A DNA stretch of 42,425 nucleotides, taken from contig JAAWTG010000022.1 of assembly GCA_022801925.1 (NCBI GenBank), positions 1 through 42,425 of the forward strand, in the 5' to 3' direction. This stretch comes from Clostridia bacterium (lineage in GTDB: Bacteria; Bacillota; Clostridia; RUG12999). Under the pieces are notes generated by a model. It worked only from the letters and a program-made list of their open reading frames with translations, searched no databases and was not told the DNA's origin. This document shows positions 22,904 through 40,951 of this stretch, in pieces; the stretch's first letter is position 1, and the number at the start of each line of letters is the position of its first letter. Position numbers and translations under genes: made by a program.

Positions 22904-23152
22904 TTTTCATATGTCGGTAATTATGGTATAATATACGCGGAGCGCTTTCGAAAGGGGGACTAATTCCGGCTTGTTTTACTCGCCGTCATACCGTCCCCCT
23001 TGTCGGAATCCCCCTTTGCAGCGTTCTGCGCTCGCACGTCGCGCCGCGTGACGCGGCACTCCGAACGCTGTAAGGTATGCAATCTTCGGCACGTGTCCAA
23101 AGATTGCATGAATTGAAAAGCGCCGCCGAATCATTTCGTCGCATACGCTTTA
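22904..23152 (+). ncRNA. Structured intergenic element, copy 1, possible small RNA
   Basis: The element begins with TTTTCA (22904-22909), 17 bases and an extended -10 TGGTATAAT. The expected transcript folds into GGGGGAC (22954) with GTCCCCC (22993), ATTCCG with CGGAAT (23004), CAGCGTT (23019) with AACGCTG (23064), ATGCAATCTT (23077) with AAGATTGCAT (23100), and AAAGCG/CGCTTT near 23117-23151. A diverged copy at 28336-28636 keeps the pairs by compensatory changes. There is no convincing open frame. 23153-23291 downstream holds a TTTCAT-rich hairpin and the murA ribosome binding site, with no other gene seen. Confidence 0.6.
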
Positions 23153-28335: not shown

Positions 28336-28636
28336 TTGAATCATTACGGAAAATATGATATAATAGACAAAAGTCTTTTCAAAAGAGGGACTCATTCCAG
28401 CTTCCCTTCGGTTGCTGTCATATCGTCCCCCTTGTCGGAATCCCCTTAAGCAGTGTTCTTCGCTCGCGCGTCGTGCCGCATAACGCGGCACTCCGAACGC
28501 TGTAGGGTATGAAATCTTCGGCATGTGTCCGAAGATTTCATGAATCAAAAAGCGCCGCCGAATTGTTTCTTCGCATACGCTTGAAATCGGCGGTGTACGA
28601 AGTTATACCAGTTCGCTTTGCGAACATGGTATAATA
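28336..28636 (+). ncRNA. Structured intergenic element, copy 2, with outward -10 at its end
   Basis: It starts with a very good promoter: TTGAAT (28336-28341), 17 bases ending TGA, TATAAT (28359-28364). Pairings parallel those of copy 1: CAGTGTT (28451) with AACGCTG (28496), GTGCCGC with GCGGCAC near 28474-28490, and ATGAAATCTTCGG (28509) with CCGAAGATTTCAT (28529). It ends with a long hairpin: TTATACCA-GTTCGC, loop TTT, GCGAAC-A-TGGTATAA (28603-28634). The right arm makes an extended -10 TGGTATAAT for the SLH gene. It fills the 344-base gap between the dehydratase and SLH genes. Confidence 0.6.
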
Positions 28637-31646: not shown

Positions 31647-31692
31647 CCGACAGAATACGTTACAAAAAAGCAGATTTGTGCGATTGTATTAT
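31647..31692 (+). repeat. 46-bp direct repeat, left copy, with promoter
   Basis: These 46 bases recur exactly at 40814-40859. The repeat holds TTGTAT (31684-31689), and just outside it after 17 bases comes TATAAT (31707-31712), giving a complete promoter. The unrepeated sequence downstream leads to a 17-codon signal-peptide-like frame at 31876. Confidence 0.85.
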
Positions 31693-31875
31693 ACCCGGAT
31701 ATTCTTTATAATATTAATTACAGAAAGAGTATGTGTGCTTTGAGATGATTGCATAAGTGACCGGCAAAATTTTTGTTGATACTGGTTTTAATACCGTCTT
31801 TTTATTTGGTTTACGGTTAGGCAGGAAGTTGCTTCGGCGCTTTTATGGTAAGGTCAAAACAAAGGAAGTGAGATT

Positions 31876-36360: not shown

Positions 36361-36501
36361 TTGAAAGATTGCAAAAGATATTGTATAATATATGCAAAGC
36401 ATATACTATATATTGAAAGCGCCGCCGAATTGTTTCATCGCTTTGCTCGAAACCGGCGATGCGCAGTATTATATCAAATTGCTTCGCAATTATGATATAA
36501 T
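36361..36501 (+). ncRNA. Structured intergenic element, copy 3, shortened
   Basis: A consensus promoter TTGAAA (36361-36366), 17 bases, TATAAT (36384-36389) is followed by ATATGCAAAGCATAT and then directly by the 3' third of the element (GAAAGCGCCGCCGAATTG from 36416). The middle hairpins of copies 1 and 2 are missing. The terminal hairpin TTATATCA-AATTGC, loop TTC, GCAATT-A-TGATATAA (36469-36500) differs from copy 2 at several pairs, yet all stay paired. It again ends in an extended -10 (TGATATAAT) pointing at the response regulator gene. Confidence 0.6.
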
Positions 36502-36569: not shown

Positions 36570-38036
36570 ATGTATAAATTGATTTTAGTAGATGATGATG
36601 AGTTTACACTGAATAACATTTCAAAAGCAGTGGACTGGGAAAAGAACGGATTTGAACTGGTCGGAAAGTTTGAAGCGGCAGAGAGCGCTATTGAATATAT
36701 GAAAGAAAATGCGGTTGATGCAATCATTTCGGATATCAAAATGCGCTGGATGAGCGGGCTTGAATTTGCCGAATATATTCAAAAAAAGTATCCCGATATG
36801 GCTTTTGTCATTCTGAGCGGTTATGACAGCTTTGAATATGCTAGGACGGCGTTGCGGAGCAAGGTTATTGACTATATTTTAAAGCCTGTTATGCTGAAGG
36901 ATATTGAACGGGTCTTAGCAGAATGCAAGGAATTTCTGGATGATAGAAGCCGCAGCAGCATCTCGGATGAAAATATTGAGCTGCAGGAGTTTATTGCGAA
37001 ATATATCAAGCAAAAAACGGATGATATATCCATTTTGAGAAAAACGTTTCATAAGCAGGGATTTCAGAACAAGATAGATGAAACGCCTGTTGTTTCTGCT
37101 GAAATTGTCTTTGAAGAGGACATCAAGCAGTATATCAGAAAGCATTGCCACTTCGGAAGGGATAGTTTCAATAACTTGATAAACAATCTTTTTATGGGAG
37201 AAAACGGAATTATTTCAATTCCTACAGATTATTCTTTTGATTCTATAGAATATATCATTTTCTGTGATTGCACCAGCCATGCAGAGTGCATAGAAAAAAT
37301 AGAGTCCCTGCGGAGAAGTATCCGAAAAAATGCGGCAGAAATGTTAAATTTGAAGATTGACCTTGTCAGGAAAAAAATTTCAGACAATATCTATAGTATT
37401 TTTGACGATGCACGGCACGAGTTTATATCCATTAATGTAAACATGGTATATGAGCAAATGAGCAGCGGCGAGACAGAAAAAGCGATAGAAGCCTATAAAG
37501 CATTTGAGAAAAAAATTAACTGCAACGAAGATGATATTACTAAATTTTATGCAGCGCTGGCGTCAAGAATTAAAGTATGCAGCAATTATCTTTTGTACGA
37601 CAAGGAGACGACAAAATATATTACTGCGGATATGGAGCAAATAAAAAGCAACAAGCTTAATATCTGTGACATCATAAGAGTTGTTTCAGAGGAAAACCAA
37701 AGGTTAAATGTTTATGATTTAATAAGCATAGCCCAGAAATTTATTGATGAGAATTATGCAAAGAACATTACCGTTTCAGATGTTGCGGACAGAGTAATGC
37801 TTTCAGAAAGTTGGTTCAGCCGGCAGTTTAAAAAGAGAACCGGTAAAAACTTTGTGGATTATCTCAATGAAGTCAGGATTACCAAGGCGGCGATGCTGCT
37901 GAAATGTACGAACCATTCGGTGAATGATATCTATGAAGCGGTTGGTTACAAAAGCAGAAATCATTTTTATGTGCAGTTCAAAAAATATATGGAGTGCTCG
38001 CCGCAGGAATACAGGAAAAATCTGATAGAACATTAA
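36570..38036 (+). CDS. Response regulator, YesN-type with AraC output domain
   Basis: A 488-residue regulator. The receiver domain (1-120) has acidic residues D8, D9 and D10, phosphoacceptor D55 in AIISDIKM, and the conserved Lys in YILKPV. The loop after D55 reads MRWMSGLEF, where most relatives have MPxMDG. A middle region of about 250 residues has no recognised domain. The C-terminal AraC helix-turn-helix pair (about 385-485) contains ITVSDVADRVMLSESWFSRQFKKRTGKNFVDYL and ends CSPQEYRK. It precedes its kinase by 20 bases and probably controls the adjacent importer and secreted protein genes. Confidence 0.93.
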   Translation: MYKLILVDDDEFTLNNISKAVDWEKNGFELVGKFEAAESAIEYMKENAVDAIISDIKMRWMSGLEFAEYIQKKYPDMAFVILSGYDSFEYARTALRSKVIDYILKPVMLKDIERVLAECKEFLDDRSRSSISDENIELQEFIAKYIKQKTDDISILRKTFHKQGFQNKIDETPVVSAEIVFEEDIKQYIRKHCHFGRDSFNNLINNLFMGENGIISIPTDYSFDSIEYIIFCDCTSHAECIEKIESLRRSIRKNAAEMLNLKIDLVRKKISDNIYSIFDDARHEFISINVNMVYEQMSSGETEKAIEAYKAFEKKINCNEDDITKFYAALASRIKVCSNYLLYDKETTKYITADMEQIKSNKLNICDIIRVVSEENQRLNVYDLISIAQKFIDENYAKNITVSDVADRVMLSESWFSRQFKKRTGKNFVDYLNEVRITKAAMLLKCTNHSVNDIYEAVGYKSRNHFYVQFKKYMECSPQEYRKNLIEH

Positions 38037-40813: not shown

Positions 40814-40859
40814 CCGACAGAATACGTTACAAAAAAGCAGATTTGTGCGATTGTATTAT
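40814..40859 (+). repeat. 46-bp direct repeat, right copy, with promoter
   Basis: An exact copy of 31647-31692, 9,167 bases away. It contains TTGTAT (40851-40856), and TATAAT follows 17 bases later (40874-40879), forming the likely promoter of the secreted protein gene. TGTGCGATTG within it recurs at 40920-40929, a possible tandem operator. Confidence 0.85.
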
Positions 40860-40951
40860 GCATGAACCTTTATTATAATATATTTTAGAGGTTATTACTA
40901 AAAATTTATGAAATAAATATGTGCGATTGGTAACTATTTGGGGAGGAGAAG

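Follow-up and report, generated by a model that had tools for sequence, protein, structure and literature searches.

A short modular repeat upstream of a YesN-type gene, probably a member of a mobile Clostridia family that inserts at sigma-A -10 boxes

Organization of the locus

The window analyzed here is a stretch of 42,425 nucleotides, which is contig C12 of a draft genome of 2.95 Mb (G000). Three copies of a repeat element are considered in it, and copy 3, which precedes a YesN-type gene, is the main subject. The features are as follows.

36361-36389, + strand: host sigma-A promoter (-35 TTGAAA at 36361-36366, 17-bp spacer, -10 TATAAT at 36384-36389)
36384-36501: copy 3 element, short member
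36384-36410, + strand: 5' palindrome TATAATATATGC-AAA-GCATATACTATA, 27 bp, left arm including the -10
36411-36418, + strand: A-rich linker
36419-36464, + strand: body A hairpin GCGCCGCCGAATTGTTTC...GAAACCGGCGATGCGC, GC-rich and bulged
36468-36501, + strand: 3' palindrome ATTATATCA-AATTGC-TTC-GCAATT-A-TGATATAAT, 34 bp
36570-38036, + strand: YesN-type response regulator gene (Response_reg and AraC HTH)
28359-28635, + strand: copy 2, long member, upstream of an SLH-domain gene
22927-23149, + strand: copy 1, long member lacking the 3' palindrome; an EPSP-synthase-family gene lies downstream

The preliminary description had placed a consensus promoter before the YesN-type gene, and TTGAAA-17-TATAAT is present there. 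It overlooked that this promoter doubles as the left arm of the 5' palindrome: the TATAAT at 36384-36389 is the host -10 and also the outer left end of copy 3. The inner arm of this palindrome is imperfect in copy 3 and perfect in the G001 ortholog (GCATATATTATACA). Body A folds into a 4-bp closing stem, a 2-nt AT bulge, a 5-bp stem, a 4-nt internal loop, and another 5-bp stem. The outer arm of the 3' palindrome is a predicted extended -10 (36493-36501) facing the YesN-type gene, which starts 68 bp from the end of the element.

The GCGCCGCCGAATTG core occurs exactly twice in the window, and in copy 3 it is located at 36419. In copy 2, the host -10 (28359-28364) is followed by a long middle module (~28388-28540), body A (from 28552), and the 3' palindrome (28602-28635). 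In copies 1 and 2, the extra module occupies the place of the inner arm of the 5' palindrome. The terminal hairpins reported earlier, AATTGC-TTC-GCAATT with TTATATCA/TGATATAA in copy 3 (36468-36501) and GTTCGC-TTT-GCGAAC with TTATACCA/TGGTATAA in copy 2 (28602-28635), were both found, and every stem change between them is still paired.

Two other direct repeats were seen in the window. The first, of 77 bp (84% identical) with a promoter-like end, is at 31647-31723 and 40814-40890; its first copy is upstream of an ABC solute-binding protein gene, and the repeat is perhaps a common operator of a YesN-type regulon. The second, of 197 bp (70%), is at 317-513 and 1172-1368 within an ORF (106-2505) and probably represents duplicated protein domains.

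Anatomy and distribution of the repeat family

Copy counts rest on pattern and similarity searches of the genome. With copy 2 as query, BLAST against the own genome gave 55 matches, and with copy 3 it gave 27 (26 other places). The 3' palindrome pattern TTATACCA-N8-25-TGGTATAAT was found at 18 places versus 0 for the reversed control, and a further palindrome count gave 26 versus 3 in its control. Both full and shorter forms, which the preliminary description had distinguished, were found with consistent ends. Two other genomes of the genus, G001 and G002, contain similar numbers of elements; they are MAGs of uncultured Clostridia, and several of the genomes compared here are fragmentary MAGs.

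The repeat family is dispersed, modular, and non-coding, with a 5' palindrome containing a -10 box, a GC-rich bulged hairpin, and a 3' palindrome. The bodies between the two palindromes (A, B, and long) are exchangeable. Among the body-A relatives of copy 3, the short layout of 118-121 bp is seen in most of those that have both ends. Copy 3 had been described as having lost the middle third seen in copies 1 and 2; it is in fact the canonical short form, with about 16 similar examples. A second body type, B (GTGCCTCCG...GGAGATGCAC), was found between end palindromes of the same kind, and units nest in arrays with a common TATAAT (L007, L052).

Several variations on this anatomy were also observed. 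A module GGAGGTTCCTCGTCGGGATACGACTCGGAACTGTCCTC-TGCGTGAGGAC can stand in for the segment between the body and the 3' stem (L125, L180, L232, and others), and a further repeat type starting with TTTTCCAAGAAGGGATTCTCTCCGGCTTACGCCGTCGATTCATCCCCCC is often fused to the right-hand TATAAT of a short unit (L037, L040, L045, L142, and others). Hybrid 3' palindromes, ATCTGC/GCAATT and ATCCGC/GCGTTT (L052, L162), have arms from different stem types, which suggests exchange at the loop. At the copy 2 site in G001 (L198, about 1625-2176), a body-B unit is followed by an extra ORF (MNLLFLCSQNKRRSLTAEKIF...). From its sequence this ORF reads like a low-molecular-weight tyrosine phosphatase, as if cargo had arrived with the repeats.

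For the distribution outside the genus, 391 Clostridia genomes were scanned for the 3' palindrome and the matches were then inspected. The layout recurs in a sister genus (g3) and in three families (f8, f28, and f51). The class-wide pattern matches many genomes by chance, and a covariance model separates these. Only short elements from the window's genus, 15 in all, went into the model, and copy 3, which scores 129.7 bits, is itself one of the 15. Matches were obtained in f51 (E 1.5e-12 and 1.6e-9, and 4.1e-10 for a third with its 5' end missing), f8 (7.1e-12 and 9.1e-11), g3 (4e-11, 2.4e-10, 5.5e-10, and 1.8e-7), and f28 (3.2e-5), while 22 control loci with the chance pattern gave no match below E 0.6. 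Across families, the central hairpins have a 4-bp closing stem, a 2-nt bulge on the 3' side, 5-7 bp, and an asymmetric loop, although their sequences differ (GCGCCGCCG, GCCCGTGCG, GTGCCTCCG, and TGTCCAAGC).

A known RNA family was rejected as the identity of the element, since Rfam gave no match at the gathering score; the best sub-threshold hit was RybB (E 0.14), far under its cut-off. A phage, plasmid, or viral origin was also rejected because searches of viral contigs, plasmids, and phages gave no match to the element. A literature search for promoter-targeting repeats in Clostridia found nothing relevant, and the element appears to be undescribed so far.

The elements are seated on host promoters

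To place the left ends relative to host promoters, we used the 48 units that are not flanked on the left by another unit. In 28 of the 48, a -35-like hexamer (at least 4/6) is 16-18 bp upstream of the left TATAAT, versus 6.9 ± 2.4 in shuffled flanks, and 13 units match at least 5/6 versus 0.9 in shuffled flanks. There was no comparable -35 peak at other spacings in these units. Where the neighboring gene could be called, the downstream gene is on the same strand in 31 cases and on the opposite strand in 5. The elements carry a -10 at both ends, and the right one, beside the downstream gene, is an extended -10 (TGnTATAAT; TGGTATAAT or TGATATAAT). Promoter activity is predicted for both ends.

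Empty sites in sister species

Family members are mobile in these gut Clostridia, as observed from empty sites in sister species. In G000, 18-bp ATGATACAATAAATACAG flanks the insert of C94, a long member; the sequence is single in G001, and single with one base different in G002. L235 has the 19-bp GATATAATAGTCACATGAG on both sides, and the site is single, as GATATAATAGACGCATGAG, in G000. L228 has a 19-bp duplication, ATGGTATAATAGT(C/T)(A/G)CAAA, with two mismatches between the copies. Four other sites (L232, C49, L252, and L231) have shorter duplications of about 6-11 bp, which surround TATAAT. The direct repeats at all seven sites contain the host -10. A fixed 6-bp TATAAT duplication was rejected as a general rule, because three sites have 18-19 bp. 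Such variation in duplication length would be unusual for a single transposase.

Sites are also occupied differently between species. Orthologous promoters carry different bodies at the copy 2 site, the copy 1 site, C20, and C53. At the copy 2 promoter, G001 and G002 have different elements, so that there are three different ones across the three species. Copy 1 is common to G000 and G001, and a short body-B unit is in its place in G002. In each of the three species sequenced for the genus, copy 3 is present at the orthologous site. Its duplicated part is TATAAT only, and its right TGA does not match the left TTG. Since copy 3 has no empty site of its own, its insertion is deduced from its siblings.

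The inner arms of the terminal hairpins copy adjacent host DNA

The 3' palindrome shows strong covariation: 97% of cells are paired, with 50 double-change cells versus 17.9 ± 3.5 in shuffles. Selection can account for this, but the arms track the host as well. The preliminary description took such changed but paired positions as strong evidence that the hairpin is selected or was recently amplified as a unit. The inference to selection fails for the terminal hairpins, as their inner arms copy the adjacent host promoter and unique flank. In the 5' palindrome, the inner arm complements the host -10 even when the latter is a variant (TACAAT, TATCAT, TATAAC, and TATACT), with CATAAT and TAAAAT as exceptions. 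It is also complementary to unique host flank in L254 (TTTCCCATGATATAAT...ATTATATCATGGGAAA) and in L197, the copy 1 site of G002 (CAATTATGG...CCATAATTG). Beyond the -10, the complementarity between inner arm and host sums to 45 versus 18.3 ± 4.3 for re-paired flanks (0/5000). At the right end, TGATATAAT goes with A at host -1 (p = 7.5e-4); it was found in 6 of 8 hosts with TGATATAAT versus 2 of 24 others, and the inner arm agrees with the outer arm in 31 of 32. A host-independent 3' palindrome was therefore rejected, because the right-end TGA/TGG follows the host.

Copying between arm and host fits either template switching or an insertion event in which the target is copied. Template switching creates and repairs hairpins (PMC8794818), and such quasipalindrome mutation gives perfect inverted repeats and compensatory changes without selection (PMC8794818, PMC7202029). 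Because the inner arms copy the host flank, pairing of the terminal hairpins alone is not evidence of selection. The central hairpin has no contact to host DNA, so its fold across families counts as evidence of a selected structure. A structure-level constraint on the central hairpin is thus supported by a bulged fold kept across four families. The terminal hairpins are a warning case: covariation that is usually taken as selected structure is at least partly copied host DNA.

Comparison with known elements

The preliminary description compared copy 3 to a MITE derivative of a larger element. We did find a repeat that resembles a mobile element, has full and shorter forms with consistent ends, and is accompanied by duplications, and like a MITE it is short, non-coding, multi-copy, and dispersed. 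However, ends compared by eye at all empty sites showed no inverted repeats in terminal position: GTGACTATTATA, the left inner end, does not match the right inner end when the latter is reverse-complemented (AATTGCGAAGCAATT), and each palindrome lies within a single end. Of a MITE one expects duplications of constant length; direct repeats are present at the clear empty sites here, with lengths from 6 to 19 bp. The element works like a MITE, but it is by definition outside the class since it lacks terminal inverted repeats.

REP/REPIN and other IS200/IS605-derived palindromes are short, possibly bulged, and spread in trans. The palindromes here are likewise short, but Y1_Tnp (PF01797) is absent from the genome (the same search was positive in 5 of 14 control genomes), and direct duplications are present, which IS200/IS605-derived elements do not make. 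No mobiliser or transposase was found, Y1_Tnp being the one enzyme family searched. The IS1202-group insertion sequences make unusually long target duplications of 16-28 bp (PMC10132070), but they are DDE transposons whose terminal inverted repeats measure about 24-26 bp, and none was seen on inspection of the ends here.

The element resembles Correia elements (CREE) of Neisseria, which are also small non-coding mobile repeats upstream of genes and which pair a native -35 with a -10 at the element end (PMC2649163). It differs from them in target and ends: CREE insert at TA or CA and end in Correia terminal inverted repeats, whereas the present element lacks such repeats, targets -10 boxes, and shows duplications up to 19 bp and a three-hairpin anatomy. 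It also resembles the BOX elements of Streptococcus, which, in the part of the published account used here, are hairpin-rich modules boxA-boxB-boxC with exchangeable middles, nested with repeats and upstream of genes (PMC3049150). The modular A-(B)n-C composition is found here too; the likeness is one of layout, the host group is another one, and that part of the account describes no link to a -10.

Discussion

We conclude that copy 3 is probably an intact, short-form representative of a Clostridia repeat family whose members are mobile but non-autonomous and insert at sigma-A -10 boxes. An enzyme acting in trans might recognize the hairpins of the element, and insertion might target the melted promoter in the open promoter complex, given that the long duplications extend from about -16 to +2/+5. 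Insertion would be tolerated because the promoter is rebuilt; with the -10 copied to each side of the insert, the gene behind probably still works. Template-switch copying between the host promoter and the inner arm may be at least part of what keeps the terminal palindromes perfect. Copy 3 is at one site in three species, so its insertion is old and predates their split, and it is now a fixed leader with tandem predicted promoters before the YesN-type gene. The earlier suggestion of a recent amplification therefore does not hold for copy 3.

Any single specific route of spread is doubtful at best. The uneven duplication lengths would allow passive template-switch spread, or movement through an RNA intermediate that relies on pairing between TGGTATAAT and a promoter for priming. 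Passive spread would need no dedicated enzyme: polymerase template switching, or recombination through short homology between ends that bear TATAAT, would carry unit copies to other promoters and homogenize the palindromes. We consider this unlikely but worth serious thought. The -10 sequence would be the common microhomology, and the variable duplication length, the inverted copying of unique host flank (L254, L197, and C59), the module swapping at fixed sites, and the hybrid 3' stems all agree with it. However, template switching is a process and not an element: it explains the terminal arms, but not readily the 18-19 bp duplications, which at C94 occurred without element homology at the target, nor the spread of bodies. 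Moreover, the bulged central hairpin conserved across families looks recognized by a protein or RNA.

It is improbable that the repeat is a vertically inherited cis-regulatory RNA or DNA leader, such as an attenuator or operator, that is not mobile. The position upstream of and co-oriented with genes, the fixation of copy 3 in three species, the covariation (0/500), and the fold conserved between families would suit a leader, but the empty sites, the nesting of units in arrays, the lack of relation among downstream genes, the change of body at orthologous promoters, and the lack of an Rfam match would not. As the sole explanation it is largely refuted by the empty sites; domestication of single copies is possible.

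A single-strand element of the HUH/IS200-IS605 or RAYT type, whose hairpins are recognized in ssDNA and cleaved 3' of TATAAT, is very improbable. Hairpins at both ends, a bulged stem, strict insertion beside a fixed short sequence, and the short-duplication sites whose right TGG is not host-derived (L232, C49) recall such elements, but the genome has no Y1_Tnp, this type makes no target duplication although 18-19 bp duplications exist (C94, L228, and L235), and the right-end TGA/TGG follows the host. That copy 3 arose by internal deletion from a larger element resembling copies 1 and 2 and was recently amplified is extremely improbable: it has body A and the 3' palindrome in common with copy 2, but the short form, which has a 5' palindrome of its own, is canonical, common in three species, and present in other families, and copy 3 itself is orthologous in all three species.

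More speculatively, and quite unlikely as a whole, the probable mobile family may belong to an element class in several Clostridia families that targets open promoters, entering the melted -10/+1 region, duplicating it, and rebuilding both sides, with an RNA copy as a possible route in the manner of eukaryotic SINEs. An RNA route is considered because a transcript from the left promoter would start about at the first base of the element, and the 3' part of the RNA (TGGTATAAT...) would pair with the template strand of any promoter.

Small promoter-borne repeats rewire gene expression, and few are known to land on the -10 box itself and rebuild it. With dozens of elements in one genus, changes of element at promoters between sister species, and an anatomy found in four families, promoter turnover by a dedicated element could be studied directly.
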